Source: Rhodobacter sp.
Lineage (GTDB): Bacteria; Pseudomonadota; Alphaproteobacteria; Rhodobacterales; Rhodobacteraceae
Direction of reading: 5' to 3'
Assembly: GCA_027490955.1 (NCBI GenBank)
Contig: JAIXXB010000031.1
Span: forward strand, 1-42,480
Length of the DNA stretch: 42,480 bases
The position numbers and the translations under genes are program-made. How positions within the stretch are numbered: position 1 is the first letter of the stretch; each line of letters opens with the position of its first letter. The notes under the pieces were generated by a model. The model searched no databases. It was not told where the DNA came from and worked only from the letters and a program-made list of their open reading frames with translations. Of the stretch, positions 19,201 to 42,149 are shown piece by piece.

Positions 19201-22200
19201 CCGATGCCGCCAAACAGGCGGTCAACATCATCGCCACCATAAAGCGTATCGTTGCCCGCGCCGCCATTCACCGTGTCATTGCCCTGATCGCCAAACAACA
19301 GATCACCGCCGTTAGACGCCAGCGTATCGTTTCCAGCGTCCCCATAGATCAGATCAGTGCCAGAACCGCCGTAAATGGTATCGCGCCCGAAATCGCCGAA
19401 AAGACTGTCATTGTCCATCCCGCCATCAATGCGATCACCGTCAAAGCCGCCATAGACCAGATCAGCGTTAACACCAGTGACAATACGATCATCCCCTTCG
19501 CCGCCATAAACTATGTCCGCGCCAAAATAGCCCGTGATAGTATCGTTGCCAAGCCAGCCGTCTAGAAGATTTCCGTCGGCACCCATGCCAAAGATTTGGT
19601 CTGCACCCAGCCCGCCAAAAACGTGGTCGGTCACACCTGTGGCTGTGACATTAGAATCATCGCCCCTGCCGCTGACCAAGATATCGTCGCCAGACCCGCC
19701 AAAGATTGTGTCGGCATTATCGCCGCCATAGATCACATCTTGGCCATCTTCACCCAGCACTAGGTCATTGCTATTGCCCGCATAAATGCGGTCATCCCCC
19801 GCGCCGCCATAAAATGTATCGGCATTGGGCAGCGATCTTTCCTCCAAACTATCGATGCCCGCATCGCCGTACATTATGTCGTTGCCCGCACCGCCGTACA
19901 TCATGTCATTGCCCGCATCGCTGTACATCGTGTCATTGCCCGCACCGCCCAGCATACGATCATTGCCCGTGCGACCGTGCAGGGTGTCACTGCCATCGCC
20001 GCCGTCCAGCGTGTCATTGCCATCGCCGCCGTCCAACAAATCTACCGCGCCAAAGCCACTCAGCAGGTCATTGCCCGCGCCGCCATACATGGTCTCGTTC
20101 ACCGCGCCGCCGACTATGGTCTCGCCAAAGCTGGTGCCTGTAAAGATAGTCCCCGCATTCGTCACTTGCATTATACCAATATTCGCCATGCTGGTGACGC
20201 CATTGAGCGTGATGGTTGCCCCTCCAACCAGTGTCAGCACCATGTTTCCGCCTTGGATCGTGCTATTGGTGATGTCAGAAACGCCCGCTTCGCCGCCTTC
20301 AAACCTTAGAAAATCAACGCCAGCGGTAAAGTCATAGATCGTGTCTCTGGCGCTGCTTGCGGCGATGGTAAAGCCAAAGGTGTCTGACCCAAGCCCACCG
20401 TAAAGAGTATCAGACCCACTGCCGCCATACAGCAAATCATCGCCCGCCCCGCCATAGACGATGTCTGAATCATCGCCGCCATCCAGCAGATCATTGCCTG
20501 CGCCGCCGTCCAGCAAATCCAATCCGATAGATCCCGAAAGATTATCAGCGTCCTCGCCGCCATAAATGCGGTCGTTCATCCAGCCGCCCATGATGGTATC
20601 TGCGCCCGCATCGCCATAGATCGTATGGTTGCCGATAGAACCAGAAAACAACGCGCCGTTAATGCTATCCGCATCTGCGCCGCCATAGATCAGGCTCACC
20701 GCAGTGACCTCGATCCTGTCCATCCCAGAGCCGCCAAAAATCGTATGCGGGCTTTCCAAAGTCTGAAGTTCAGCGCGAATCGTGTCATCGCCCGCATTGC
20801 CGTGAACTACATTGTTCGACAGCGTGTCATTCAGGGTCGTCGAGCCGATCGTGATGACATCGTTGCCATCACCGCCATACAGCGTATCGTCGCCAATCTG
20901 TGCAACCATTGTGTCGTTGCCTGCCCCGCCGAAAAGAACGTCGGTGGCAAGACGACCATCGACATAGTCGTGATCACCCCCGCCATAGATCGTCTCAAAG
21001 CCTGCGCCGCCATAGACGATATCCAAACCTGCCCCGCCATCCAGAAACGACGTAGCAGCCCCGCTGGACCAGATCTGATCGTTGCCGTCCCCGCCAAAAA
21101 TGCGGTCGGCCACGCCTGCGAGGGCCGCCAATGAATCGTTCTCATTGCCGCCAGTCAGGGTGTCATCGCCCGCACCGCCGTTAACGGTGTCAGACCCCGC
21201 ACCGCCGTAGATTATGTCATCGCCATCGTCGCCATTCGCCACATCTGCGCCGTTGCCCGCATAGATGCGGTCCATATCCGCGCCGCCGTAAATCGTATCA
21301 GCATTGGACAGCGTATCATTCCCGCCCGCATCGCCGTAAATCGTATCATTGCCTGCGCCGCCCAGCAGGCGGTCATTGCCCGCGCGGCCATGCAATGTGT
21401 CGCTGCCATCACCGCCGTCCAGCGTGTCATTGCCATCACCGCCGTCCAGTGCATCAGCGCCACCAGCGCCATTAAGCACATCATTGCCGCCATCGCCGTA
21501 CAGCGTATCGTTCCGCGCCCCGCCTGCGATGGTGTTGCTTAGGCTACCGCCTGAAATAAAGTCGCCACCCGAGGTTTGCACCCCCACAATCACCGAATCG
21601 GCTGCGCCAGCCCCGTTCAGCCGCACTGTGCCATTGGCATTGGTATAAAGTAGCGCGCCTGCTGCGCCTGCAATCGTGGACATGCCCGCGCGCATGGCGT
21701 CTGTGGTCGCAAGCGATGCAACCGCCCCATCCAACATCAAGACATCGCCCTGCGCGGCTGAATAATCTGTCACTGTATCATTGCCAAAGGCAGAGTTGCT
21801 TGAAATCACAAACCGATCCGCCTCGGTGCCGCCCGTCAGGGTGTCATTGCCTGCGCCGCCCGTCAGCGTATCTGCGCCAGCCCCGCCCAGCAAAACCCCA
21901 TAGCCACGGCCATCGATCAGCATATCATTGCCAGCACCGCCGTCTAACGTCGAGGCACGGACAACCCCGTCATTGGTATAGCGAACCGAGGTGATGGTGT
22001 TTGGGCTGGCGCTGGCATTTTGCCACGAAATCACAAAGCCCGTCGGTGTTGCAACAACGGTTGGGTTGGTTGCGAGTAACCCAAACCCTTGCGGGTTGAC
22101 GATGAATTCGTCGGTAAAGGGCGTGTTGTCTGCGTTAAACACCCGCGCCACGATGTTGATCTTATCGGTGGGGATCCACCCTCCGCCCGTATAATCCGTA

Positions 22201-23345
22201 GATTGGGCTTCGTAGACCACCACAAACTTGCCATCTGCCAATACAGTGATCGAAGGGTTGCGTTCGTTCAGCGTTGCCAAAGCAAGGTTTTGCATAACCT
22301 GAAAATCGTTATAGGTCGTGCCCGTGGAATCAAACCTACGCCCATAAATCCCAAAAGCATCGTTGTTGCCGACTTGGCCATACAACAAATGTTCACTCGT
22401 CCAAACGGCGATGAAACCACCGTTGGCCGTTGCCGCAACGCTTGGCTGCGATTGATTCCAAAATGCATTTTGGTTCAGCAGAAACTGACCTGCGACTGGG
22501 CTGCCTGTTGCGGTGAAAACGCGGCCAAAAACATCTGATTTAGATGCACCTTCCGTGACCATCCCAATGCCTGCTTCATCTTCCCAAACGACAACAAAAT
22601 TGCCGTTCGACAGGGCCACCACCTGCGGCGCAAATTGGTTCATGTTCGTAGAGGTATTCACCAAAAAAGGGCCGCCCGACAGTGTCCCATTTGCAGCCAC
22701 AATCTGGCCACTGATCGCATTGCCCGAAGCATCGCCTGCTTGGCTGCTGTTGGTGTAAACCACAACATAGCCACCGCCAGAAAGGGCGGCAATCGAAGGT
22801 TGGAATTGTGACACCGACGCCGTGTTTGGTGTAATATTGATAATCTCAGAGCCGACGAGTGCATCCGTATAGCTGCGCGCCATGATGTTGGTTGCGGCTT
22901 GCGTTCCGCTTTCAGGGGAATCCCACGTGACCACAAAGCCGTCATTTGCCAGCGCGGTGACTGCGGGGCGCAGTTGGTTGCCAGTTGTTTGGCCAGCGTT
23001 GACCAGCAGTTCGGCCCCTACTTTTGCGCCCAACGCATCAAAGCGTTGCGCCCTGATGTCATAGCTTGTTTCATCAACCCACGTCAGCACATAACCGCCG
23101 CCAGACAGTTGCGCGCTGGCGGGAACAGTTTGCGCGCCAGTGGTGATTGTGCTGACCACCGCTTCGGTTCCAACCCGCGTCATTGGGTTAAACGGGCCTG
23201 TGGCGTTGATCGTATCATCGCCCAATCCGCCAATCAGCCGGTCAACCCCGCCGCCGCCGTAAATCACATCATTTCCTGCCAAACCATCGATAGTCTCGGC
23301 TGCGGCGGTGCCGTTCAGCGTGTCGTTCAGGGCGGTGCCGTCCAT
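16221..23345 (-). CDS. Giant RTX-repeat protein with propeller-like N-terminal domain
   Basis: Predicted type I-secreted calcium-binding surface or extracellular protein of about 2374 residues. After a short RTX block (about 1-48), residues about 60-465 hold repeated blades of the form GGGYVLTW, DGFVVTW, GGYVVVY, NFVVVWE, GGFIAVW, KFVVVYE, each followed by a GRxF-like strand, resembling a beta-propeller. About 1900 residues of RTX nonapeptides (GGAGNDTLYGG-type) follow. These are interrupted by serralysin-C-like modules near 515-590, 990-1060, 1485-1580 and at the C-terminus from about 2268 (FNVAQGDKLHLYW...), the last one the likely secretion signal. ATG 23345 has GGAG 8 bases upstream; a TTG four codons earlier is less likely. 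No T1SS genes adjoin it. It may act in adhesion, as a biofilm matrix protein or as a surface layer; the substrate is unknown. Confidence 0.9.
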   Translation of the reverse strand: MDGTALNDTLNGTAAAETIDGLAGNDVIYGGGGVDRLIGGLGDDTINATGPFNPMTRVGTEAVVSTITTGAQTVPASAQLSGGGYVLTWVDETSYDIRAQRFDALGAKVGAELLVNAGQTTGNQLRPAVTALANDGFVVTWDSPESGTQAATNIMARSYTDALVGSEIINITPNTASVSQFQPSIAALSGGGYVVVYTNSSQAGDASGNAISGQIVAANGTLSGGPFLVNTSTNMNQFAPQVVALSNGNFVVVWEDEAGIGMVTEGASKSDVFGRVFTATGSPVAGQFLLNQNAFWNQSQPSVAATANGGFIAVWTSEHLLYGQVGNNDAFGIYGRRFDSTGTTYNDFQVMQNLALATLNERNPSITVLADGKFVVVYEAQSTDYTGGGWIPTDKINIVARVFNADNTPFTDEFIVNPQGFGLLATNPTVVATPTGFVISWQNASASPNTITSVRYTNDGVVRASTLDGGAGNDMLIDGRGYGVLLGGAGADTLTGGAGNDTLTGGTEADRFVISSNSAFGNDTVTDYSAAQGDVLMLDGAVASLATTDAMRAGMSTIAGAAGALLYTNANGTVRLNGAGAADSVIVGVQTSGGDFISGGSLSNTIAGGARNDTLYGDGGNDVLNGAGGADALDGGDGNDTLDGGDGSDTLHGRAGNDRLLGGAGNDTIYGDAGGNDTLSNADTIYGGADMDRIYAGNGADVANGDDGDDIIYGGAGSDTVNGGAGDDTLTGGNENDSLAALAGVADRIFGGDGNDQIWSSGAATSFLDGGAGLDIVYGGAGFETIYGGGDHDYVDGRLATDVLFGGAGNDTMVAQIGDDTLYGGDGNDVITIGSTTLNDTLSNNVVHGNAGDDTIRAELQTLESPHTIFGGSGMDRIEVTAVSLIYGGADADSINGALFSGSIGNHTIYGDAGADTIMGGWMNDRIYGGEDADNLSGSIGLDLLDGGAGNDLLDGGDDSDIVYGGAGDDLLYGGSGSDTLYGGLGSDTFGFTIAASSARDTIYDFTAGVDFLRFEGGEAGVSDITNSTIQGGNMVLTLVGGATITLNGVTSMANIGIMQVTNAGTIFTGTSFGETIVGGAVNETMYGGAGNDLLSGFGAVDLLDGGDGNDTLDGGDGSDTLHGRTGNDRMLGGAGNDTMYSDAGNDMMYGGAGNDIMYGDAGIDSLEERSLPNADTFYGGAGDDRIYAGNSNDLVLGEDGQDVIYGGDNADTIFGGSGDDILVSGRGDDSNVTATGVTDHVFGGLGADQIFGMGADGNLLDGWLGNDTITGYFGADIVYGGEGDDRIVTGVNADLVYGGFDGDRIDGGMDNDSLFGDFGRDTIYGGSGTDLIYGDAGNDTLASNGGDLLFGDQGNDTVNGGAGNDTLYGGDDVDRLFGGIGDDVLRDGAGNDLAYGGEGSDTLIAGSNDDVLYGDAGNDVLNAATGSDTLYGGLGNDTLVGDASNAALHGDVGNDSLRGSSAADTLNGGAGSDDLSAGRGNDTITTGLDADIVHFARGDGNDLVTDFSLTQDRIRLDTSLMTSQQLENEFYAQFASTIVFSGGTNGTPLVIDFGGNDVLRLAGVTSAQAGQIVMEINGRLLGTTDGDDRFSGSANDDTIYGYSGADSINGGLGDDLINVAGGDGTDTVNGGGGDDTVFAGESAAVLAFGDAGNDVLTGHGFADSLYGGLGNDTVYGGAGHDLLYGDDGNDIIFDSTGQDTIYSGAGNDTITIIGRVPGDSNTIYGGAGADSITGGAVVFAEDGNDTIQLEVMAAWVDAGAGDDRLSTNTNATEATLLGGIGNDTLIAFSHRTQLEGGDGNDVLDATSNLSDIFDALLYGGAGNDLLRQSLGGNAYGGAGSDTIYGQEETTAFGDDGNDIIFSDAAFGGAGNDSITAQIAGLSYGGAGSDTLVGLGGSDTLYGDDTAAGALFGNDSLVGGGGDDDLFGGVGNDTLYGDTGDDHLFGEGGNDLIYAGAAVLSDRLYGGDGSDRLFATTHAALIYGDAGEDIITGGSSGDTLYGGAGHDTLFGGAGIDTIYGGAGNDSISLTEAERVFGDADNDTITGSTANDTIYGGDGRDSLSGGNGGDSVFGGADGDTINGADGTDILAGNAGGDLLYGGVGDDSLYGDEQIGSTFGDGADTVFGGEGNDYIVGGAFNDLLNGDAHGDTVMGGEGADTLSGGTGDDFLYGEAGIDLIYGGDGVDNIYLGDDSATGAAYGGNGDDYIAGSLGADLIYGDVGNDDLNGRDGRDTLTGGAGNDTLRGDTGSDLMLGGDGNDILFGGAGRDLDTLTGGLGADQFHFFFESMDPDRSSGSDTITDFNVAQGDKLHLYWNADSNITAADLQSIATINQAANSITLAFGTGDFAMSITIQGISNLQTLADNIVELNGILG
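19890..20035 (-). repeat. Internal duplication in the RTX gene, copy 2
   Basis: This stretch aligns without gaps to 21303-21448 at a constant offset of 1413 bases, and both copies contain the block cagcgtgtcattgccatc. Protein similarity extends beyond the listed bounds on the low-coordinate side (DRIYAGN in both). It indicates segmental duplication of a unit of about 470 residues, not merely the short nonapeptide period. Confidence 0.6.
21303..21448 (-). repeat. Internal duplication in the RTX gene, copy 1
   Basis: Partner of 19890-20035 (offset 1413 bases, no indel in the part compared). Both copies encode the LDGGDGNDTLDGGDGSD series followed by TLHGR and a GNDR motif. Confidence 0.6.
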
Positions 23346-23592
23346 CGGAAACTCCAATCAAAATATCGCAAAAATGGGCAGGTCTAGGCTGAGGAATTGC
23401 GCCGCATCGGGTTGGTTGCGGCACCAAACTGGCAAAAGGTTGAACTAACCTTTCGAGACAGTAATCACCAAAAGTATAAATGCAATCGTGATTTACCCCT
23501 TATCAGAATGTAAACCATGATTTTACACCCATAGGTATAAAACCGCCTGCGCCTTGCTGTGGGCGCTCGGTATGCTGTGTCAAAATTGGGGG
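23346..23592 (-). promoter_or_regulatory. AT-rich promoter region of the giant RTX gene with two palindromes
   Basis: This 247-base gap is much richer in AT than its surroundings. It contains AAAGGTT-N5-AACCTTT (23435-23453) and TGTAAA-N7-TTTACA (23509-23527), both perfect inverted repeats. TATAAA-like boxes lie at 23475 and 23536. They are probable regulator sites and promoter elements for the leftward RTX gene. The regulator is not identifiable from the sequence. Confidence 0.55.
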
Positions 23593-32538: not shown

Positions 32539-33342
32539 TCAATCCACGAAAGCGCGTTCGACAACATAGGTAGCGGGGGCGGAATTTGACCCTTCGGTCA
32601 GCCCATAGCTTTCCAGCATGGCCCTTGTGTCACGCAGCATTTCCATAGAGCCGCAGATCATGGCGCGGTCGGTTTGGGGGGAAATGGGCGGCAGGCCCAA
32701 ATCGGCAAACAGCTTGCCATTGGCCATCAGATCGGTGATCCGTCCCATGGTCGGGAAAGACGCGCGCGTGGTGGTGCTGTATAGGCGCAAGCCTGCGGCC
32801 ATCTCTGCGACCAAAGGATCGGCCCTGAGCGCCGCTACAAGGTTTTGGCCATAGGTCAATTCCGCAGCCGTGCGGCAGGTATGGGTCAAGATCACCTCGT
32901 CAAACCGCGCATATGTTTCGGGGTCGCGAATCAGGCTGGCAAAGGGCGCAATGCCCGTGCCTGTTGAAAACATCCAAAGCCGTTTGCCAGCCAGCAGCGC
33001 ATCATGCACCAAGGTTCCTGTCGGCTTTTTGCGCATCCAAATGGTATCGCCGCGCTGGATGCGTTGCAGATGCTCTGTCAGTGGGCCATCGGGCACTTTG
33101 ATAGAGTAAAACTCAAGCTCGTCATCCCATGCGGGTGAGGCAATGGAATAGGCGCGAAAAATGGGGCGGTCTGGCTGCGGCAGGCCAATCATCACAAACT
33201 CGCCCGAGCGAAAGCGAAACGAGGCGGGGCGCGTCATGCGAAAGCGGAACAGGCGGTCTGTGTAATGTTCGGTTTGCGTGACCCGCTGGGCGAAAATACC
33301 ATCGGGTATGGCAATGTTTTGGGGTGAAATCAGGTGGGTCAC
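32539..33342 (-). CDS. fpr: Ferredoxin-NADP+ reductase
   Basis: Flavoenzyme of 267 residues moving electrons between NADPH and ferredoxin. The FAD-binding motif is RAYSIASP, followed by the NADP-site pattern FSTGTGIAPFASLIRD and the distal MICGSMEMLRDT. The C-terminus VVERAFVD is like that of bacterial subclass Fpr. The start is GTG at 33342 with AAAGGA six bases upstream; the longer frame back to 33459 runs into fdxA sequence and is not used. It follows fdxA by 11 bases, so the two form one operon. In this setting it would reduce the ferredoxin that supplies 6-hydroxynicotinate reductase. A general role in redox balance is the alternative. Confidence 0.92.
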   Translation of the reverse strand: MTHLISPQNIAIPDGIFAQRVTQTEHYTDRLFRFRMTRPASFRFRSGEFVMIGLPQPDRPIFRAYSIASPAWDDELEFYSIKVPDGPLTEHLQRIQRGDTIWMRKKPTGTLVHDALLAGKRLWMFSTGTGIAPFASLIRDPETYARFDEVILTHTCRTAAELTYGQNLVAALRADPLVAEMAAGLRLYSTTTRASFPTMGRITDLMANGKLFADLGLPPISPQTDRAMICGSMEMLRDTRAMLESYGLTEGSNSAPATYVVERAFVD

Positions 33343-33353
33343 GATGAATCCTT

Positions 33354-33686
33354 TCACGTCTGCGCGGCAAGGGGCGACAGATGGGCCAGCTTGTCTGGGA
33401 TTGTGGCCCAGTGGTCGGCATCGGCAGGAACGACACCCTTTTGGGTGATATTTGGCCAAAGCATGGCATAGTGCCTATTCAGCGCGACCCATTTTTCGGA
33501 ATCGGGCATTGTATCGGGCTGAATGGCGTTTGCGGGGCATTCGGGTTCGCATACGCCGCAATCGATACATTCGTCGGGGTGAATCACGATGGTATTTGCC
33601 CCTTCGTAAAAGCAATCCACAGGGCATACCTCGATGCAGTCTTGATACTTGCAGTTGATGCAAGCCTCGGTCACAACATAGGTCAA
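33354..33686 (-). CDS. fdxA: 7Fe-type ferredoxin (3Fe-4S/4Fe-4S)
   Basis: Small cytoplasmic electron carrier of 110 residues. Cys9, Cys17 and Cys50 suit a 3Fe-4S cluster, and Cys21, Cys40, Cys43 and Cys46 a 4Fe-4S cluster ([26 protein letters not shown]). The C-terminal extension with DSEKWVALN is typical of FdxA. The start is TTG at 33686 with AGGAG about 6 bases upstream; no ATG is available. The gene is read from TTGACA-N16-TATTTT, with the island operator immediately downstream of the -10 box. It is the probable electron donor to Hnr. Confidence 0.93.
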
Positions 33687-33756: not shown

Positions 33757-33789
33757 TTGACGACTGCTAGGCTTTTATTTGTATGCTAA
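33757..33789 (+). promoter_or_regulatory. Promoter and operator of the enamidase gene
   Basis: TTGACG (33757-33762) and TATGCT (33782-33787) are 19 bases apart. The operator TTTGTATGCTAA (33778-33789) covers the -10 box. It lies back to back with the fdxA promoter, giving a divergent control region with two operators 64 bases apart. Confidence 0.6.
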
Positions 33790-33817
33790 TGCTGGCGGCA
33801 ACATGTGGAGCAGCGCT

Positions 33818-34981
33818 ATGAAGAAACTTGTCATACGGGGCATTGGGCAAATCCTGACGGGGAAATTGGAACAGCCCCTTGCGGATGGCGATTGTTTGGT
33901 TGCCATTGATGGGCGCATTACCGCTTGGGGTGCGGAAAAGGATTTAGATTGCGAGGGGGCCACAACCCTTGTTGACGCAAAGGGCGTCACCCTTGCGCCG
34001 GGTTTGATTGACAGCCATGTCCACCCCGTTGTGGGCGATTATACCCCGCGCCAACAGCAGTTGCATTGGATTGACAGCACCCTGCATGGCGGGGTGACCA
34101 CGCTGATTTCGGCGGGCGAGGTGCATATGCCGGGACGTCCCAAAGATATCGTGGGGCTAAAGGCGATGGCGATTGCGTCGCAGCGATGGTACGAAAACTT
34201 CCGCCCTTCGGGGGTAAAGGTGCATGCAGGTGCGCCTGTCATTGAACATGGCATGGTAGAACAAGATTTTCAGGAACTGGCCGCAGCGGGTGTGAAACTG
34301 TTGGGCGAGGTGGGTCTGGGCACTGTGAAAGATGGCAAGACCGCGCGGCAAATGGTGGAATGGGCGCGCAAATACGGCATCCAAAGCACCATTCATACAG
34401 GCGGGCCTTCGATTCCTGGATCGGGTTTGATTGATGCCGATATGGTGATTGAAACGGGCACGGATGTGATTGGCCATATCAATGGCGGACATTCGGCGCT
34501 GCCTGATGACCAAATCATCTGCCTGTGCGAAAGCTGCAAGGCGGCGTTTGAAATTGTGCATAATGGCAATGAACGCGCTGCTGTGCTGGCGCTGAATACG
34601 GCGCGCGAATTGGGCAAGCTGGATCAAGTCATTCTGGGCACAGACGGGCCTGCGGGGTCGGGTGTGCAGCCTTTGGGCATTTTGCGGATGATCGCCATGC
34701 TGTCTGCCTTTGGCAATGTGCCTGCTGAACTGGCCTTTTGCTTTGGCACGGGCAATACGGCACGCCAGCGCAAGCTGGATGTTGGGCTGATCGAGGTGGG
34801 CTATTCAGCGGATTTCGTTTTGCTGGATCAGGCGCAGCATTCGGGCGGGAAAACCATGCTTGACTCGGTGCGTTTGGGCAATCTGCCCGGTGTGGCGATG
34901 ACCATCATTGATGGGGTGGTCACATCAGGGCGCTCGCGCAATACACCGCCTGCTCAGCGATTGCCCGAACAGATTTTATAG
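33818..34981 (+). CDS. ena: Enamidase (1,4,5,6-tetrahydro-6-oxonicotinate amidohydrolase)
   Basis: Amidohydrolase-superfamily enzyme of 387 residues. In Eubacterium barkeri, enamidase hydrolyses tetrahydro-6-oxonicotinate to ammonia and 2-formylglutarate. Candidate metal ligands are H67 and H69 (IDSHVHP), E164 (LLGEVGLG), H193 (TIHTGG), H220 (GHINGG) and D276 (GTDGPAG). From memory of the E. barkeri protein, several stretches are nearly the same: GDYxPRQ, LHGGVTT, GEVGLGT, HTGGxSIPG, GHINGG, PLGILR and the C-terminal SRNTPPAxR. The length is also close. ATG 33818 has GGAG upstream; a TTG at 33779 lies within the operator and ATG 33803 is less likely. It is convergent with the PF06684 gene, 23 bases away. 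Similarity to dihydropyrimidinases and imidazolonepropionases is only superfamily-level. Confidence 0.88.
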   Translation: MKKLVIRGIGQILTGKLEQPLADGDCLVAIDGRITAWGAEKDLDCEGATTLVDAKGVTLAPGLIDSHVHPVVGDYTPRQQQLHWIDSTLHGGVTTLISAGEVHMPGRPKDIVGLKAMAIASQRWYENFRPSGVKVHAGAPVIEHGMVEQDFQELAAAGVKLLGEVGLGTVKDGKTARQMVEWARKYGIQSTIHTGGPSIPGSGLIDADMVIETGTDVIGHINGGHSALPDDQIICLCESCKAAFEIVHNGNERAAVLALNTARELGKLDQVILGTDGPAGSGVQPLGILRMIAMLSAFGNVPAELAFCFGTGNTARQRKLDVGLIEVGYSADFVLLDQAQHSGGKTMLDSVRLGNLPGVAMTIIDGVVTSGRSRNTPPAQRLPEQIL

Positions 34982-35004: not shown

Positions 35005-35589
35005 TTAGCGCAGCCCGTCCTTTCCCTCGGCTTGGGCATGGGTCAGCCCGCCGACCCGCGCCAAGGGGCGGCCGCTGTCGGTAACGGCGACTGCCACCAT
35101 GATTTCATTGCTGCGAGGGGAATCGTTCAACTGCACTTCGATTCCATCAAAATGGCTGCGCACATAGGCTGCGTCTTTGTGCCCCAAAGGCACGTCCAAC
35201 ACCTGCCCCGGCCCGCCCATCTTTTTTGAAGATGGCACCAAGGCCGCGCCTTTTTCAACAGCCAGACGCAAAGGCGCGCCCAATTTAGGGTGCAAAATGG
35301 CGGCGGCATGTTCCAATTCGCCATTCTCGCCCACCATGGCCGATTTGCCATAGCTTTGCGCCTGATCGGGCGTAATTCCCAGCGCCTCGACACAGCGCTG
35401 GCCCAGCAGCGCGCCCAGTTCGGCGCCGATATCGGTCAGCAGGGTCAGATCCTCTTGGTAGATGCCCGCAAAAGGGTTTGCGATCACGGCCACGGCCACT
35501 GCCTTGCGGGTTGGGGGGGCAACCGCGCGCCCCATCTCGCTGTGGGTTTCCTCTATTGTCACGGACAATTTGCGAATTTGCGCGATCAT
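35005..35589 (-). CDS. Amino acid synthesis (PF06684) family protein, paralog 1
   Basis: Protein of 194 residues of the PF06684 'amino acid synthesis' family, whose biochemical role is not established. Family patterns are VAVIANPFAGIYQEDL, YGKSAMVGENGELEHAAAILHP, ALVPSSKKMGGPGQVLDVPLGHKDAAYVRSH (read in parts) and the end GKDGLR. No signal or membrane segment is seen. The ATG at 35589 overlaps the stop of the upstream paralog (ATGA); the longer frame back to 35877 reads antiparallel noise from that gene. It is the last gene of the hydroxylase-Hnr operon. A role in turning over 2-formylglutarate or a related acid is possible but unproven. Confidence 0.85.
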   Translation of the reverse strand: MIAQIRKLSVTIEETHSEMGRAVAPPTRKAVAVAVIANPFAGIYQEDLTLLTDIGAELGALLGQRCVEALGITPDQAQSYGKSAMVGENGELEHAAAILHPKLGAPLRLAVEKGAALVPSSKKMGGPGQVLDVPLGHKDAAYVRSHFDGIEVQLNDSPRSNEIMVAVAVTDSGRPLARVGGLTHAQAEGKDGLR

Positions 35590-36167
35590 CTTAATCCATC
35601 CTCGCCTTTGATATGTGCCGCATCCAAGCCGCCTGCGCGGTTGTGCACGCGCGCGCCATTGCTCATCACCAAAATCAGGGCCAATTCCGCGCGACGGGGC
35701 GCATCGGGGCAGCCCACCTCCATCGAATCGAAATGGCTGCGCACATAAGAGGCGTTGATATGGGTGATCGGCACATCCAGCCGCCCGCCCACGCCCACCA
35801 CCTTTTTTGTTGATGGAACGATGGCCTTGGTGTTGTTCAACACTTCGCGCATCGCATAACCGCCCGGTTCGTGCCACAGCGCGCCATGTTCCAATTCGCC
35901 GCCTTCGCCAATCATCGCGCCTTTGCCATAGCCTTCTACCTGATCTACCCCACCCAGCATTGCCACAAGGCGCTGCGCCATCTGCAGGCCAAGGGGTTTA
36001 AGCGGTTCCATGAACCAGCGGATGTCAGGCTCGTATCGGCCAGCAAATGGGTTGGCCACAACAGCCAAGGCCGAGGCGCGGCGATAGGGGCGCGGCGGTG
36101 GCGGGCCGCCTTCGTGCAGCACCTCCTCTAGGCTGAACACCAGTTTGCGCAGGGAATACTCAGGCAT
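35586..36167 (-). CDS. Amino acid synthesis (PF06684) family protein, paralog 2
   Basis: Protein of 193 residues, clearly homologous to its downstream neighbour along the whole length. Patterns are VVANPFAGRYEPDI, YGKGAMIGEGGELEHGALWH, IVPSTKKVVG, LDVPITHINASYVRSHFDSMEV and the end GEDGLR. Divergence between the two copies suggests distinct partners or a hetero-oligomer rather than recent duplication. ATG 36167 overlaps the UPF0280 stop by 8 bases; TTG 36173 is an alternative. Confidence 0.85.
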   Translation of the reverse strand: MPEYSLRKLVFSLEEVLHEGGPPPPRPYRRASALAVVANPFAGRYEPDIRWFMEPLKPLGLQMAQRLVAMLGGVDQVEGYGKGAMIGEGGELEHGALWHEPGGYAMREVLNNTKAIVPSTKKVVGVGGRLDVPITHINASYVRSHFDSMEVGCPDAPRRAELALILVMSNGARVHNRAGGLDAAHIKGEDGLR

Positions 36168-37020
36168 GTTCAAGGACTTTCGCTAAGGGTGCGGCAGCGC
36201 CGCAGGTCAGGGCCGCACCTTGCAAAAACAATGCGCAGCCTGAAATCTGCCCTGTGTCCAGCAAGGCCGTGGCACGGGCAAGCCCCGCGCGCAGCGCCCG
36301 ATCGCGCAGATCAGGCGGCAGGGTGGCACAGCCTGTGACCACGGGAATCGGCCCCAAATCGCTGTCTGGGGCAAGGCTGTTTGCCGCAGCGCGGGTGATT
36401 GCGGGATGGTCGGGCAAATCAACGGCATTGGCAATCAGCGTGGCGGCAACATCGGCGAGGGCGGCGCTTTGCGCCAGAACGGTGACGCTGTCGGCAATGC
36501 CAAGGCTAAAGCTGCGGCCATGGCGTCCACTGGTGGCGATACCGCCAATGCCATCTTGGGCGCGCAGGCGAATATCCCCTAAATCTTGGCCCGTGACCGA
36601 TGCCATGCGCACAGTATATTCTGTGCCTGCCGCCAAATGCAGGGCGATATCGCCGCCGTTATTGACCATGGCCCGCGAAAGCTGCGCCGCGCCCAGCATT
36701 GCGGCCAAGATTTCATCGGCCACCGATCCTGCCACCGCCGCCATGCGCGTTAAAAATGCGCCATCGTAAAGGCGGGTGGTGGCGGCATCCATGCGCCGCG
36801 CCACAGCGCCCTGCGGCCTTGGCCCTGTGGCAGAAAAGGGCGCGCGCAGCAGGGGCAATTCTTCGACCAGTTCGTGTAAAACAGTTTCAAACCGCTGCAC
36901 GGCGGCGCGAAAGGCGCGATCCTTTTCACCATCTGCCTTGACGATCAGGTCAATCGGGCCGTGCTGCAAATGCAGCCGCGTGCCATCGACCGACAGCGCT
37001 GCAGTGGCGCGCGATGTCAC
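36160..37020 (-). CDS. UPF0280 family, ApbE-like protein
   Basis: Protein of 286 residues with the core motifs of the ApbE flavin transferase fold: VNNGGDIAL (119-127), GIATSGRHGRS (160-170) and SVTVLAQSAALADVAATLIANA (178-199, read in parts). ApbE proteins attach FMN covalently to target proteins. UPF0280 members have no settled function. The start is GTG at 37020 behind AGGAGCAAATC, and it overlaps the hnr stop (GTGA). Hnr of E. barkeri is reported to carry a covalently bound flavin, so a dedicated flavin transferase for Hnr is an attractive inference. There is no signal peptide, so it acts in the cytoplasm, unlike classical ApbE. Confidence 0.85.
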   Translation of the reverse strand: MTSRATAALSVDGTRLHLQHGPIDLIVKADGEKDRAFRAAVQRFETVLHELVEELPLLRAPFSATGPRPQGAVARRMDAATTRLYDGAFLTRMAAVAGSVADEILAAMLGAAQLSRAMVNNGGDIALHLAAGTEYTVRMASVTGQDLGDIRLRAQDGIGGIATSGRHGRSFSLGIADSVTVLAQSAALADVAATLIANAVDLPDHPAITRAAANSLAPDSDLGPIPVVTGCATLPPDLRDRALRAGLARATALLDTGQISGCALFLQGAALTCGAAAPLAKVLEHA

Positions 37021-38522
37021 GATTTGCTCCTGCGTGACCAGCGGAAATGCGCGGCTTCCAGCGGGTCATGCTGATCGGGGTTCAGCGTTAAGCGGCGCAA
37101 ATCTTGCAGCGCCGTGTCTTCGACGGGCCTGATTTCCGACATATGGCCGCCCAGCGCCTGATAATCATGGCGGCGCAGCGTGAATTCGATTGGCGCAACC
37201 AAGGCAGGGGTTGGCACATAGCCAAAAGATCCCGTGGGCATATCCAAAACATCCACCATAAAGGTAATGCCGCCACCCGGCCAAATATAGGATTTTGCCC
37301 CGCCGCTGGACACATGGGTCAGCGCGTCTTTGACCGATTTGGTCAGCCGCACGGGGTTTTCTGTGACGCCCGCGCGCAAACTGCCACCAGCACCGCCCAT
37401 GAACAGCACCGAACAAACCGATGGTTCGCAGTTTTCCGCGATCAAATCCGCAGATTTTTGCAGCACAGCAGGGGTGCTGCGCAATTGCGGTGTCAAATCA
37501 TCGTCCAATTCGTAATAGGCCGATTGCTCTCCCGTAGTCGAGACCATGAACAGCCGCAGTCCGGGCCGCGCCACTTTGGCATTGAACGGCCCGATGATGC
37601 GCAACGGATCGTCAATATCTGTGCCGCCCCAACCCGTTCCAGGCTTGGCAACCTGAAAATATCGCCCGGGAGTCGAGCGCCGACCCAGCAGTTTGATGCC
37701 CGTGGGGGCCACGTTCAGTTGCTTGCCCGCCTCATGTTCCGACAAAACGCCCGTGATATGATCATCCACCACCACAACATCGTCGGTATGGCCAAGCCAT
37801 TGCTTTGCAAACATCCCGATGGTCGCCGAACCGCAGCCCACGCGCATCAGCTTTTCGGGCGCGCCGTTGATGATGGGGGCTTTGCCTGCCTGAACAATCA
37901 CGGTGGTCTGATGCCCGTCTTTGCCGATCACCAGTTCAACCGCCTCGCGGTTACACAGGCGCAGTAAGGTGTCACAGGTCACGCGGCCTTCGGATTTTGA
38001 GCCGCCTGTCAAATGCTCTACCCCGCCAAGCGACAGCATTTTTGATCCGTATTCAGACGTGGTCACATGGCCCACGTGTTCGCCTGCGGCATAAACGGGG
38101 TCGCATTCGTGGCCGATATGGCGGTCTGTGTCAATTTTCACCTTCACGCCGCAATAGCTGAAAATCCCTTCGGTCACGACAGTGATCATATCGACTCCGT
38201 CCACCTCTTGGCTGACGATAAAGGGGGCGGGTTTATAATCGGGATAGGTTGTGCCCGCGCCAACTGCCGTCACAAAGGTGCGCGCGCCTTTGATGATGTC
38301 GCCATCCCAGTCGTCATGCGCTGTGTCGGCCAAAAACGGCACCAGTTTATGGCCCGAGTTTTGCAAGACCGTCAATGGATCCAGCCGCACCAAATTGCCT
38401 TGGTGGTTGGCGTATCGGTCGCAGGCCCCCGCGCGCCCTTCGGCGATGTAGCACATCACGGGGCAGGCATCGCAGCGAATCTTTTCGGGTGCGGTGTCTT
38501 TGGGGGGGATGATTTCGTTCAT
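37017..38522 (-). CDS. hnr: 6-hydroxynicotinate reductase
   Basis: Iron-sulfur flavoenzyme of 501 residues. Known members reduce 6-hydroxynicotinate to 1,4,5,6-tetrahydro-6-oxonicotinate with reduced ferredoxin. The N-terminus has a ferredoxin-like cluster motif, C17-x2-C20-x3-C24-x9-C34. Further cysteines (C124, C140, C183, C190, C230 and a pair in ENCEPSVC) could hold more clusters; the E. barkeri enzyme is reported to contain one 2Fe-2S and two 4Fe-4S clusters plus covalent flavin. I see no canonical ApbE target motif; GSAT at 231-234 is the nearest resemblance. ATG 38522 overlaps the hydroxylase stop (ATGA), and the 3' end overlaps the UPF0280 start. The enamidase and ferredoxin nearby support the assignment. 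Confidence 0.85.
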   Translation of the reverse strand: MNEIIPPKDTAPEKIRCDACPVMCYIAEGRAGACDRYANHQGNLVRLDPLTVLQNSGHKLVPFLADTAHDDWDGDIIKGARTFVTAVGAGTTYPDYKPAPFIVSQEVDGVDMITVVTEGIFSYCGVKVKIDTDRHIGHECDPVYAAGEHVGHVTTSEYGSKMLSLGGVEHLTGGSKSEGRVTCDTLLRLCNREAVELVIGKDGHQTTVIVQAGKAPIINGAPEKLMRVGCGSATIGMFAKQWLGHTDDVVVVDDHITGVLSEHEAGKQLNVAPTGIKLLGRRSTPGRYFQVAKPGTGWGGTDIDDPLRIIGPFNAKVARPGLRLFMVSTTGEQSAYYELDDDLTPQLRSTPAVLQKSADLIAENCEPSVCSVLFMGGAGGSLRAGVTENPVRLTKSVKDALTHVSSGGAKSYIWPGGGITFMVDVLDMPTGSFGYVPTPALVAPIEFTLRRHDYQALGGHMSEIRPVEDTALQDLRRLTLNPDQHDPLEAAHFRWSRRSKS

Positions 38523-41257
38523 GGATTATGCGCCTTCATGGCCGCACGCAGGCGCGACGGCGTTGCAGGTAATTGGCTCAGCCGCACCCCCGTCGCCGCC
38601 TTAATCGCGTTCAATAGCGCGGGGGCCGTTGGAATAAGAACATGCTCGCCCAAGCCCTTTGCGCCAAAGGGGCCATGGGCGTCAGCCTCTTCGATGATCA
38701 GTGTTTCAATGGGCGGAATATCCCCAATTGTGGGAATAAGATAATCATGCAGATTTTCCGTGCGCCCGGGGAGGTACTCCTCCATCAGGGCCATCCCTAG
38801 GCCCTGCGCAATGCCGCCATGCACCTGCCCTTCGACAAGCATGGGGTTTATCGCGCGGCCGACATCATGGGCGGCAACAAATTTAAGAGGGCGCAGCGTG
38901 CCAAGTTCGATGTCCACCTCGACCACGGCCAGATGGGCGGCATAGCCAAATTGGGCATAGGGCGCGCCCTGTCCTTCGGCGTCAAGGGGTTTGGTGGGCG
39001 GGTCATAGGTTTCCTCGGCGCGCAGCACGAATCCCTCGTCATCGGCGGGCAGGCTGGCCAAATCCAGTTGCCGCGACGCGCCGTGTTCGGTGGCGCTGAT
39101 CACGCCGCGCCCAAAGGTTAGACTGGCCGCATCGCCCATATTCAGCCGCGCCAAAATTATCTGACGCAGGGCTTGCCCCGACAGACGCGCCGCATTGCCC
39201 GTGACAAAAGTTTGCCGCGAGGCCGATGTTTTGCCCGCATCTGGCGTGACCGCCGTATCGGCACCCACCAAAACCACCGCATCGACAGCCGCGCCCAAAG
39301 CCGTGGCAAAGATTTGTGTGATGACAGTGTTGGCACCTTGGCCGATATCCATCGCCCCCTGATGCAACACCAAGGTGCCATCGGCGCGCACCCCGCATTT
39401 GATGGTGGACGGGTTGGGCAGCGATGTATTCCCGCAGCCATACCAGCCCGCAGCCACGCCCACGCCGCGCCGCATCACGCCGCCTTTGGCGTTAAAACCT
39501 GCCGCCGCCTGCTGCTCGCGCGCCCATGCAGGTCGCAGCGCCGTAAGGCAGTGCTTAATGCCAACGCCCTGTGCAAAGACCTGCCCGCAGACTGTGGGCA
39601 CGCCGTTTTCCAGCGCGTTCATAATCCGAAACTCCAGCGGGTCGATCCCCAATTTCGCGGCCAATTCGTCAAACAGGCTTTCTTGCGCAAAGGCAGATTG
39701 CGGCACGCCAAACCCGCGAAACGCACCAGAAGGCGGGTTATGCGTATGTATCGCGCGCGAGCGTGCGCGATAATTGGCAATGCGATAGGGGCCAGAGGCA
39801 TGCACAGGCACGCGGTTGGCCACTGTTGGCCCCCAACTGGCATAAGCGCCTGTGTCAAACACGCCCAAGAAATCCATCGCCGTGATCTTTCCCTGCCGAT
39901 CTGCACCAATGCGCAGGGTGATGTCAGAGGGATGACGTTTGGTCGTGCTTTGCATCGATTCTTTGCGGCTGTAGCACATGCGCACAGGCTGGCCAGTTTT
40001 GATCGCCCCCAGCGCCAAGAACGGCTGAACACTGATATCCAGCTTTGATCCGAAACCGCCCCCAACCGCCGTTGGCACAATACGAATTTGCGCGGCGGGC
40101 ATATCCAAAATCGCCTCCAATGCCTCGCGGTCCATCACGGGGGCTTGCGTGCAGGCATGCACCTCGACACGGCCATCCACCACCTGCGCAAAGCCTGCTT
40201 CGGGTTCGATATAGGCATGTTCAACAAAGCCCGTGCGATAGTGGCCTTCGATGGTCACTTCTGCGGCGGCAAGTGCAGCCTCGGCATCGCCGCAAGAGAC
40301 ATGGCCACCGCACATCACATTGGCGGTGCGCGTATTGTGCAGCAAAACCGCCCCGTCTGCCTGCGCTGTGAACGGGTCTTTCAGCGCGGGCAGTTCTTGC
40401 CATGATATAGGAAAAGTGGCGGGATCCAGCGCGGCAATCGCCTCGGGCGTGCCGATCAGCGCGGCCACCGCCTCGCCGCGAAACCGCGCCTCGCCTACGG
40501 CGAAAACGGGTTGGTCAACAAAGGCAGGTATCACGCCAAAGGCATTGCGCCCTGCAATGTCAGCAGCGGTCAAATGCGCCACAAGCCCCTCAGTTTGCGC
40601 CACAAACCCGTCCAAATCGCCCAATTGAAACGCCGCACGGAAATAGGGCGAGCGGATGACATAAATCTCCAGCGTGCCTGCAGGGGCGATGTCATCGCCG
40701 AACATCTCTTGCCCCGCAACTTTGCTTGCACCATCAAGGCGGCGGATCGCCTCGCCCACGCGGCCTGCACCTGGTTTGGCCATCGCCGCCACACCCATGA
40801 CCGCATCTATAATCTTGCGATAACCCGTGCAGCGGCACAGCACACCGCCCAAGGCATCTTGCACCGCGCCTTCGCTGGGGGCGGCATCTTGGCGCAGCAG
40901 GGCAACCGCCGACACCATCATGCCCGGTGTGCAGATACCGCATTGCGCCGCGCCATGATCTTGGAAACTTTCGGCCAAAGCATGGGCATGCGGGTCGGTC
41001 TTGACCAGCCCGCCCAAAGTTTCGATATGCCGCCCCTGCGCTGCTTGGGCGGGGGTCAAACAGGCGCAAACGGGCGCGCCATCGATCAACACAGTGCACG
41101 CGCCGCAATCGCCCGCATTGCAGCCAATCTTCACTTCTCTTGCGCCAAGCTGTTCGCGCAAAATCTCGGACAGGCGCTGGCCAGACACGGCCTGCGCTGT
41201 GACGGGCCGATCATTCAGGTGAAACAGAACGGCCGTGTTTTCAGAAACCAAGGACAT
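38519..41257 (-). CDS. Molybdenum hydroxylase, fused 2Fe-2S and molybdopterin subunit (probable nicotinate dehydrogenase)
   Basis: Fusion of 912 residues in the xanthine dehydrogenase family. The N-terminal part has a plant-type 2Fe-2S motif (C46, C51, C54, C66) and a second cluster in the helical domain (C106, C109, C141, C143). The Mo-binding part begins near residue 165 and shows GGGFGSKLD, FRGFGVPQ, DIGQGANTVITQIFA and GAKGLGEH, where the Glu corresponds to the catalytic Glu of the family. With the FAD subunit encoded upstream it would hydroxylate an N-heterocycle with water. Nicotinate is the likely substrate because Hnr and enamidase follow. E. barkeri instead splits this part over three polypeptides. 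ATG 41257 overlaps the FAD-subunit gene by 17 bases. Xanthine or another purine as substrate is less likely. Confidence 0.88.
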   Translation of the reverse strand: MSLVSENTAVLFHLNDRPVTAQAVSGQRLSEILREQLGAREVKIGCNAGDCGACTVLIDGAPVCACLTPAQAAQGRHIETLGGLVKTDPHAHALAESFQDHGAAQCGICTPGMMVSAVALLRQDAAPSEGAVQDALGGVLCRCTGYRKIIDAVMGVAAMAKPGAGRVGEAIRRLDGASKVAGQEMFGDDIAPAGTLEIYVIRSPYFRAAFQLGDLDGFVAQTEGLVAHLTAADIAGRNAFGVIPAFVDQPVFAVGEARFRGEAVAALIGTPEAIAALDPATFPISWQELPALKDPFTAQADGAVLLHNTRTANVMCGGHVSCGDAEAALAAAEVTIEGHYRTGFVEHAYIEPEAGFAQVVDGRVEVHACTQAPVMDREALEAILDMPAAQIRIVPTAVGGGFGSKLDISVQPFLALGAIKTGQPVRMCYSRKESMQSTTKRHPSDITLRIGADRQGKITAMDFLGVFDTGAYASWGPTVANRVPVHASGPYRIANYRARSRAIHTHNPPSGAFRGFGVPQSAFAQESLFDELAAKLGIDPLEFRIMNALENGVPTVCGQVFAQGVGIKHCLTALRPAWAREQQAAAGFNAKGGVMRRGVGVAAGWYGCGNTSLPNPSTIKCGVRADGTLVLHQGAMDIGQGANTVITQIFATALGAAVDAVVLVGADTAVTPDAGKTSASRQTFVTGNAARLSGQALRQIILARLNMGDAASLTFGRGVISATEHGASRQLDLASLPADDEGFVLRAEETYDPPTKPLDAEGQGAPYAQFGYAAHLAVVEVDIELGTLRPLKFVAAHDVGRAINPMLVEGQVHGGIAQGLGMALMEEYLPGRTENLHDYLIPTIGDIPPIETLIIEEADAHGPFGAKGLGEHVLIPTAPALLNAIKAATGVRLSQLPATPSRLRAAMKAHNP

Positions 41258-42089
41258 GGCCCGCCGCCTTTCTGATGGCACGTTCACACAGTTTGCCAAC
41301 TGCATCCAAGCGATACGCGACTGTGCCGCGCACATCGTCAATCGGTGACAGCGGGGCCAAATGCGGCGGCTCTACCACCACTTCCTCTGGGCGCAGGCCA
41401 ACCATCGCCGCCTCAAGCAGGGGCAAGCGCTGCGCCACGGGCGAGCAGGCCCCAACCGCCACGCGCCCCCATGCAATGCGCCCTGTGGCATCGCATTCCA
41501 ACACCACCGACACCATCGCAATCGAAATCACCAGATACCGCCGCGACCCCAGCTTTACAAATGACGCCCCCGCGCGATCTGGCAGTTTCGGCACGATGAT
41601 CGCGGTCATGATCTCATCCGCGCCCAGCGCAGTGCGCCGCACACCCAGCAGAAACTCTGCCAAAGGCAAACGCCGCCGACCGCGCGCTTGGCTGGCCAGT
41701 TCAACGCGCGCATCCAAGGCCAAAAGCGCAGGAACCCCATCGGCGGCGGGCGAGGCATTGCACAAATTGCCGCCAATCGTGCCCGCGTTTTGAATCTGCA
41801 CGCTGCCGACCTCGCGCGCGGCCTGCTTTAGCCCGTCAAAGGCCGCAGGAACCTGCGCGCGCACAATATCGCTCCATGTCACGGCAGCGCCAAAGACCCA
41901 GTCGTTTGCGGTTTGCGAAATTGTCCGCAACTCGCCAATGCGGGAAATATTCAGCAAACTTTGCCGAAAACTGCCTTGCTGAAGGCTGGGAAATACATCC
42001 GTGCCGCCCGCAATAACCTTTGTTCCCCCTTGGGCCAGCGCGCCAAGTGCGTGGTCTAAATCACTGGGACTGAGGTAGGGCTTGTGCAC
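41241..42089 (-). CDS. Molybdenum hydroxylase FAD-binding subunit
   Basis: CoxM/XdhA-type FAD subunit of 282 residues. FAD-binding patterns are VIAGGTDVFPSL and IQNAGTIGGNLCNASPAADGVPALLALDA, the latter read in parts. A CO-dehydrogenase flavoprotein C-terminal domain follows (VKLGSRRYLVISIAM, AVGACSPVAQRLP). It accepts electrons from the Fe-S/Mo subunit. I chose GTG 42089, preceded by GGTGGTG; a TTG at 42119 lies inside the operator and would be a poor start. It is the first gene of a six-gene operon with overlapping reading frames running to 35005. Confidence 0.9.
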   Translation of the reverse strand: MHKPYLSPSDLDHALGALAQGGTKVIAGGTDVFPSLQQGSFRQSLLNISRIGELRTISQTANDWVFGAAVTWSDIVRAQVPAAFDGLKQAAREVGSVQIQNAGTIGGNLCNASPAADGVPALLALDARVELASQARGRRRLPLAEFLLGVRRTALGADEIMTAIIVPKLPDRAGASFVKLGSRRYLVISIAMVSVVLECDATGRIAWGRVAVGACSPVAQRLPLLEAAMVGLRPEEVVVEPPHLAPLSPIDDVRGTVAYRLDAVGKLCERAIRKAAGHVLGF

Positions 42090-42108
42090 GTCAACACCAC
42101 CGATTTTG

Positions 42109-42149
42109 ATAGTATACAAACAATATTATCAATTGCGCGGGCCTGTCAA
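42109..42149 (-). promoter_or_regulatory. Promoter and operator of the hydroxylase-hnr operon
   Basis: On the minus strand, TTGACA (42144-42149) precedes TAATAT (42123-42128) by 15 bases, or TATTGT by 18. The operator ATAGTATACAAA (42109-42120, plus strand) lies directly downstream of the -10 box and 20 bases before the GTG start. Confidence 0.6.

Follow-up and report, generated by a model that had tools for sequence, protein, structure and literature searches.

UPF0280 and Hnr as paired genes

The window examined here is a stretch of 42,480 nucleotides from Rhodobacter sp. (assembly GCA_027490955.1, contig JAIXXB010000031.1, positions 1 to 42,480). It carries on its minus strand a gene for an Hnr-like 6-hydroxynicotinate reductase without an N-terminal ferredoxin domain (37017..38522; 501 aa, ATG start) and, directly downstream, a gene for a UPF0280 protein (36160..37020; 286 aa, GTG start), a family that we take to be the same as COG2122. 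The hnr gene ends in AGC AAA TCG TGA and the UPF0280 gene starts with GTG ACA TCG, and the 4 bases GTGA (37017..37020, minus strand) are shared by the stop of the first and the start of the second, as a preliminary description of this DNA had pointed out. A gene overlap alone is weak evidence of a partnership. Across genomes, the pairing of the two proteins is far above chance level, and UPF0280 is very probably an accessory or maturation factor dedicated to Hnr. Our overall reading, to which we assign a probability of about 50%, is that UPF0280 is a dedicated maturation partner of Hnr that would act as a divergent cytoplasmic flavin transferase.

The identity of Hnr combines annotation with cluster context. 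The name rests on records annotated as "6-hydroxynicotinate reductase" with up to 76.5% identity to the window protein (10 of the 15 rows listed; 26 plasmid records), which makes it an assignment by annotation and not by experiment. The window protein had no Pfam or NCBIfam match over the cut-off and no match in the PDB; a weak match to GCV_T_C recurred in 14 of 14 Hnr proteins, with a best E value (6e-4) that was under the cut-off. Cysteines 17, 20, 24, 34, 230, and 365 are invariant in 15 homologues. Five of five distant Hnr homologues contain two ferredoxin cluster motifs in addition to a CxxCxxxC-x9-C motif, whereas the window Hnr has CxxCxxxC-x9-C only, and the fused two-cluster ferredoxin domain of the distant proteins (5/5) was found in none of 10 Hnr proteins from the window's phylum. 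The Hnr of Eubacterium barkeri reportedly contains one [2Fe-2S] cluster, two [4Fe-4S] clusters, and a covalent flavin. Residues 17 to 34 of the window protein (CxxCPxxC-x9-C) are similar to the N terminus of AmmeMemoRadiSam radical S-adenosylmethionine (SAM) proteins (E = 0.02, below the cut-off).

The preliminary description had proposed that UPF0280 flavinylates Hnr and had named an absence of co-occurrence as one of three results that would refute this; a survey of genomes did not refute it and supports a dedicated partnership. The surveyed genomes, partly draft or metagenome assemblies, comprised a family set of 198 genomes, one per genus, and a phylum set of 299 genomes, some of them shared with the family set. 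In the family set, 79 genomes contained Hnr, 78 contained UPF0280, and 77 contained both; the three discordant genomes were G132 and G155, each with its gene at a contig end, and G008, with a partial Hnr match. By our reading of the listed coordinates, the two genes share a strand and are no more than 250 bases apart in 75 of the 77, the exceptions being G010, with 4.2 kb between them, and G147, where they are on two contigs. Genome G014 has internal stops in both its Hnr and its UPF0280 match, as if the two had been lost together. In the phylum set, Hnr and UPF0280 were each found in 21 genomes, and the two groups of 21 coincided. Two genomes had split genes: in G213 (L052, L053), Hnr is split at residue 246 between two frames that share 4 bases and are followed by UPF0280, which may reflect either a naturally two-part Hnr or a frameshift, and in G399 (L073, L074), the one Hnr genome in the phylum set from outside the window's class, UPF0280 is frame-shifted into two matches, so that the gene may be broken or its sequence may contain an error.

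The pair is also retained at a distance. UPF0280 loci were collected from many phyla (the best 80 of 254 relatives, on 595 stretches), and 47 of the 80 were tested genome-wide for Hnr; outside the phylum, Hnr was present in 4 of these 47 UPF0280-bearing genomes (Syntrophaceae, Desulfosporosinus, Desulfobacula, and Formimonas records), and in 1 of 341 genomes of Clostridia, the class of Youngiibacter. Matches covering no more than about 50 residues at the N terminus were excluded from Hnr counts outside the phylum; these represent the CxxCxxxC motif, which radical-SAM-like proteins encoded at L101 and L122 also have. UPF0280 lies downstream of Hnr on the same strand in all five distant loci and directly so in four; in the fifth (L196), the gap of more than 400 bases holds a 103-aa frame that we take for chance. 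The Clostridia locus (L194) also holds an amidohydrolase, a two-part molybdopterin protein, Fe-S and FAD (flavin adenine dinucleotide) subunits, and a hydroxyisobutyrate-dehydrogenase-like protein, a gene set that presumably resembles that for nicotinate in E. barkeri. UPF0280 and Hnr thus share their inheritance, in nearly all cases as neighbours, both in the window's phylum and beyond it. We reject simple hitch-hiking of UPF0280 in an operon, since distant genomes that order their genes differently still keep the pair and since UPF0280 accompanies a second protein, HcyBio, in genomes without Hnr. Since UPF0280 nearly always stands beside Hnr, or occurs with HcyBio, it is likely to be a dedicated helper. 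A search of open-licence literature, outside which most subscription papers lay, found no paper tying UPF0280/COG2122 to Hnr.

HcyBio and the two types of UPF0280

HcyBio, an enzyme of homocysteine synthesis that we take to be DUF39/COG1900, was found within roughly 6 kb or less on either side in 31 of the best 80 UPF0280 loci. It either has a NIL/ferredoxin partner or is fused to one, and the gene often adjoining it encodes a short NIL/4Fe-4S ferredoxin (Pfam check of that gene in L103). When the 47 UPF0280 genomes were tested for HcyBio, 44 contained it, and the four with Hnr were among these. The other three, G522 (L097), G550 (L144), and G558 (L159), contained UPF0280 with neither protein, which may reflect a third client or incomplete genomes. 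Among the 341 Clostridia genomes, 43 had a strong UPF0280 match; HcyBio was present in 42 of them, and the 43rd was the only Hnr genome. HcyBio was absent from all 37 UPF0280-negative Clostridia genomes tested (37 of 295); three genomes with weak matches (G730, G751, and G849; E, 1e-4 to 5e-4) were left out of both the UPF0280 count and the HcyBio test. This split agrees with the genetics of Desulfovibrio vulgaris, in which COG2122 is needed for homocysteine synthesis and has a fitness correlation to DUF39 of r = 0.98 (PMC5764234). The suggestion in the preliminary description that a link to Hnr would give an uncharacterised family a function has to be corrected, because COG2122 already has these genetics. 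A family known mainly by homocysteine genetics now has two client types, each with its own family branch.

Homology between Hnr and HcyBio themselves was rejected, as hhalign comparisons were without significance (14 versus 15 rows, E = 0.15; further comparisons, best E = 0.19 and 0.27). One brief segment, VDMVTVVTEGIFSYCG aligned with VDVVTTGTFGPMCSSG, appeared in both the E = 0.19 and the E = 0.27 comparison and by eye, and proves nothing.

The 98 aligned UPF0280 proteins fall into two types. The Hnr type (18 of 98), to which the window protein belongs, has T91, N120 (17/18), A162 (16/18, with Cys in L194 and Asn in L197), R169, and one Ser fewer, whereas the other type (80 of 98) has G91, E120 (79/80), C162 (78/80), an extra Ser, and mostly H169 (66/80). 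One member of the latter, L144 of G550, deviates in having S162 and R169. Of the 98, 66 were placed in a quick tree, in which the Hnr-type proteins form one side of a branch with a Shimodaira-Hasegawa-like approximate likelihood ratio test (SH-aLRT) support of 100, L194 being a long row. Four genomes encode two UPF0280 proteins, one beside Hnr and the other with HcyBio-type residues. Given this clade, the type-specific residues, and the four genomes with both types, each UPF0280 type follows its own client. Set against the COG2122/UPF0280 proteins that belong to homocysteine synthesis in D. vulgaris and, as MA1715, in Methanosarcina acetivorans, the Hnr type is alike in family and in serving a ferredoxin-linked reductive client system, and differs in these residues and in lying on a separate side of the tree.

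Relation of UPF0280 to ApbE

The window UPF0280 protein passes NCBIfam NF003322 (PRK04334) with 348.8 bits (cut-off, 290) and matches the Pfam ApbE family PF02424 with 17.6 bits (E = 0.003), under the curated cut-off of 25.6; Hnr-type relatives in G824 (L194; 27.8 bits) and G529 pass that cut-off. An initial profile comparison between UPF0280 and ApbE, built from 13 rows, gave a weak match (probability 19%, E = 0.0012), and hhalign with 18 Hnr-linked UPF0280s gave a probability of 96% and an E value of 4e-9, better than that of the whole UPF0280 set (8e-6), with the match covering the C-terminal core only. An AlphaFold2 (AF2) model of UPF0280 had a predicted local distance difference test score (pLDDT) of 90, and its best Foldseek match was DVU1097 (2o34; E = 8e-11), presumably itself a UPF0280/COG2122 protein. 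Beyond DVU1097, only FmnB, ApbE, and Ftp structures were among the 19 matches with E of 0.001 or less; E values against FmnB/ApbE began at 2e-5, with template modelling (TM) scores of only 0.3 to 0.5 and root mean square deviations of about 9 to 14 A. The core motifs of ApbE that the preliminary description had listed are all present, as VNNGGDI (119-125), GIATSG (160-165), and SVTVLAQSAALAD (178-190). By predicted fold and core profile, UPF0280 is a divergent protein of the ApbE superfamily.

The Mg/phosphate residues of FmnB are Ala187, Asn216, Thr256, Ser257, Asp301, and Thr305 (PMC8906456). The window UPF0280 has all of the ApbE residues of this kind (A94, N121, T163, S164, D190, and T194); the matching was done by motif, which equates D190, T194, and S164 with FmnB Asp301, Thr305, and Ser257, and by eye for A94 and N121, FmnB itself being outside the alignment. 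Among the 98 aligned UPF0280s, D190 and T194 are kept in 98, A94 in 97, N121 in 96, and S164 in 95. UPF0280 thus shares with ApbE/Ftp/FmnB (PF02424) a superfamily fold and profile, the ATSG, NGGD-like, and ADxxAT core, and the Mg/phosphate residues. It differs from them in matching over the C-terminal core only, in lacking the segment with the catalytic His, in having no signal sequence or lipobox visible by eye in the window protein, and in having a partner without DxxSGAT.

Possible flavin transfer and its alternatives

In the proposed mechanism, UPF0280 would use A94, N121, T163/S164, D190, and T194 to bind Mg2+ together with the pyrophosphate group of FAD, or of some related dinucleotide, and would move flavin mononucleotide (FMN) onto a Ser or Thr of Hnr. 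Eight such residues are always identical in the 15-Hnr alignment (T114, T117, S122, S160, T301, T329, T330, and S381). Hnr, fed by ferredoxin, would then use the tethered flavin to give two electrons to the pyridone ring. A family going almost exclusively with two clients, a kept Mg/phosphate site, and the covalent flavin said to be present in E. barkeri Hnr fit a client-specific flavin transferase. The step itself, covalent attachment of flavin to Hnr, is judged at slightly less than even odds.

A canonical ApbE would be an alternative enzyme, and it is present in 51 of 73 Hnr genomes, a set chosen among the Hnr genomes found, with 68 members from the window's class (for the most part the more completely assembled) and 5 from elsewhere. 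It was rejected as the general flavin-attaching enzyme for Hnr because the other 22, including the window's own genome (95.4% complete), are without one; 21 of these have no ApbE match at all, and the sole match of G353 lies in its UPF0280.

Several observations, the frequent presence of a canonical ApbE among them, weigh against flavin transfer by UPF0280. The YxHxxDPxxG segment of ApbE, with the catalytic His (His257 in Vibrio cholerae ApbE, His273 in FmnB), is deleted in UPF0280 profiles, and the nearest position is Arg169 in 18 of 18 Hnr-type proteins. The FAD-contacting residues Asp184 and Lys190 of FmnB correspond, in our reading, to T91 and A97. The ApbE target motif D-x2-3-[ST]-G-A-[ST] was found in none of 60 Hnr frames (58 loci, some representing the same gene), and likewise in none of 31 HcyBio frames; a bare [ST]GA[ST] occurred in three of the 60, once outside the gene and, in two proteins resembling each other, within the C-terminal tail. 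For Hnr, the AF2 model was poor (pLDDT, 66.9) and had no PDB match with E of 0.001 or less; because of its quality, no flavin site could be placed on the protein. The covalent flavin of Hnr may also be of the self-catalysed kind. Most UPF0280s found outside the window's phylum accompany HcyBio, for which we know of no covalent flavin. An Asp-Ser-His triad has been called the catalytic centre of FmnB, its replacement costing activity (PMC8906456), and in a published comparison, the homology of COG2122 seemingly stops short of the flavin-binding region (PMC5764234). The loss of the His segment alone does not exclude transferase activity, because a change of V. cholerae ApbE His257 to Gly is said to lower activity (review, PMC12052999) and because, in Ftp_Tp, only the Mg ligands are described as critical to the transfer of FMN (PMC4767422). 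The cytoplasmic flavinylator of Hnr put forward in the preliminary description therefore holds in part: membership in the ApbE superfamily, a protein with no visible signal, and a near-obligate tie to Hnr stand, and the catalytic-His segment and a target motif in Hnr are missing.

These gaps could also be accommodated if UPF0280 were a chaperone for noncovalent flavin insertion, or were itself stably bound to Hnr (and HcyBio) as a subunit, with any covalent bond in Hnr forming by itself. The near-obligate and adjacent pairing, the altered His segment and FAD-contacting residues, and the lack of a target motif in Hnr would suit such a role, which we consider unlikely: metal/phosphate residues kept in nearly all 98 UPF0280s of many phyla go beyond the needs of a mere scaffold. 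A role as a sulfur (persulfide) carrier, as proposed for the methanogen protein MA1715/COG2122, would have UPF0280 help to build or repair the Fe-S clusters of Hnr. COG2122, needed for homocysteine synthesis in D. vulgaris, has been suggested to take part in persulfide formation (PMC5764234), and MA1715 has been called a sulfur trafficking protein (PMC12068725). Both clients are part of Fe-S systems, and Cys162 is kept in 78 of 80 proteins of the sister type and in the Hnr-type protein of Clostridia L194. At this position, however, 16 of the 18 Hnr-type proteins have Ala, one has Asn, and one has Cys, and none of their alignment columns has Cys in 30% or more; moreover, the Hnr reaction adds no sulfur, and general Fe-S assembly would need no helper limited to two enzyme families. 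Sulfur trafficking may hold for the Cys-bearing type but is a poor fit to the Hnr type, for which we regard it as improbable. That UPF0280 catalyses a nicotinate-breakdown step of its own and is clustered for that reason only is very improbable, as the sister type is equally strictly tied to HcyBio, a different pathway.

If UPF0280 does attach flavin, it would be the factor so far lacking for the covalent flavinylation of 6-hydroxynicotinate reductase, and a hidden cofactor would be predicted in the homocysteine pathway of many anaerobes. The wider proposal that the UPF0280 family consists of cytoplasmic flavin transferases, with Hnr and HcyBio as its two private, ferredoxin-fed clients, is tentative and on balance somewhat doubtful. 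The flavin would serve both clients alike as a one- to two-electron step, and the homocysteine (DUF39) enzyme would carry an unnoticed covalent flavin, explaining its need for COG2122. An ordinary ApbE is present in M. acetivorans (control row) and would, on the same proposal, explain the milder phenotype there. Hnr offers an experimentally easy client for probing UPF0280 chemistry.

Gene neighbourhood in the window

The genes around the pair are consistent with nicotinate breakdown. Upstream of hnr, and overlapping its start by 4 bases as at the hnr/UPF0280 junction, is a gene for an XDH-family hydroxylase with fused [2Fe-2S] and molybdopterin parts (38519..41341, minus strand; Pfam/NCBIfam), presumed to be a nicotinate dehydrogenase, and it is preceded by one for an XDH-family FAD subunit (41241..42119, minus strand; Pfam/NCBIfam). 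On the other side of UPF0280, beyond two AA_synth genes, lie genes for an amidohydrolase (33779..34981, plus strand; Pfam) that is, from its context, a candidate enamidase, an FdxA-type ferredoxin (33354..33686, minus strand; NF045490, 152.8 bits, cut-off 135) that may be an electron donor to Hnr, and a ferredoxin--NADP+ reductase-like protein (32539..33459, minus strand; below the NCBIfam cut-off) whose role is likewise putative. Beyond the last of these is an ATP-binding cassette (ABC) transporter that includes a Peripla_BP_6 protein and whose remaining parts were assigned by eye. Nicotinate clusters described from Azorhizobium caulinodans, Bradyrhizobium, Rhodopseudomonas palustris, SG-6C, and E. 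barkeri encode the first three steps, an ABC transporter, and two conserved unknowns (PMC3511419). UPF0280 may be one of these two, which the text of that paper, as far as it was accessible, does not name.

The two AA_synth (PF06684; Pfam) proteins that follow UPF0280 are encoded at 35586..36173 and 35005..35877 (both minus strand), and proteins of this family also occur near Hnr and UPF0280 at three of the five distant loci (L195, 10834-11271; L196, 5836-6432; and L197, 15697-16329). Outside the nicotinate cluster, the window contains an open frame of 2378 aa (16221-23357, minus strand).

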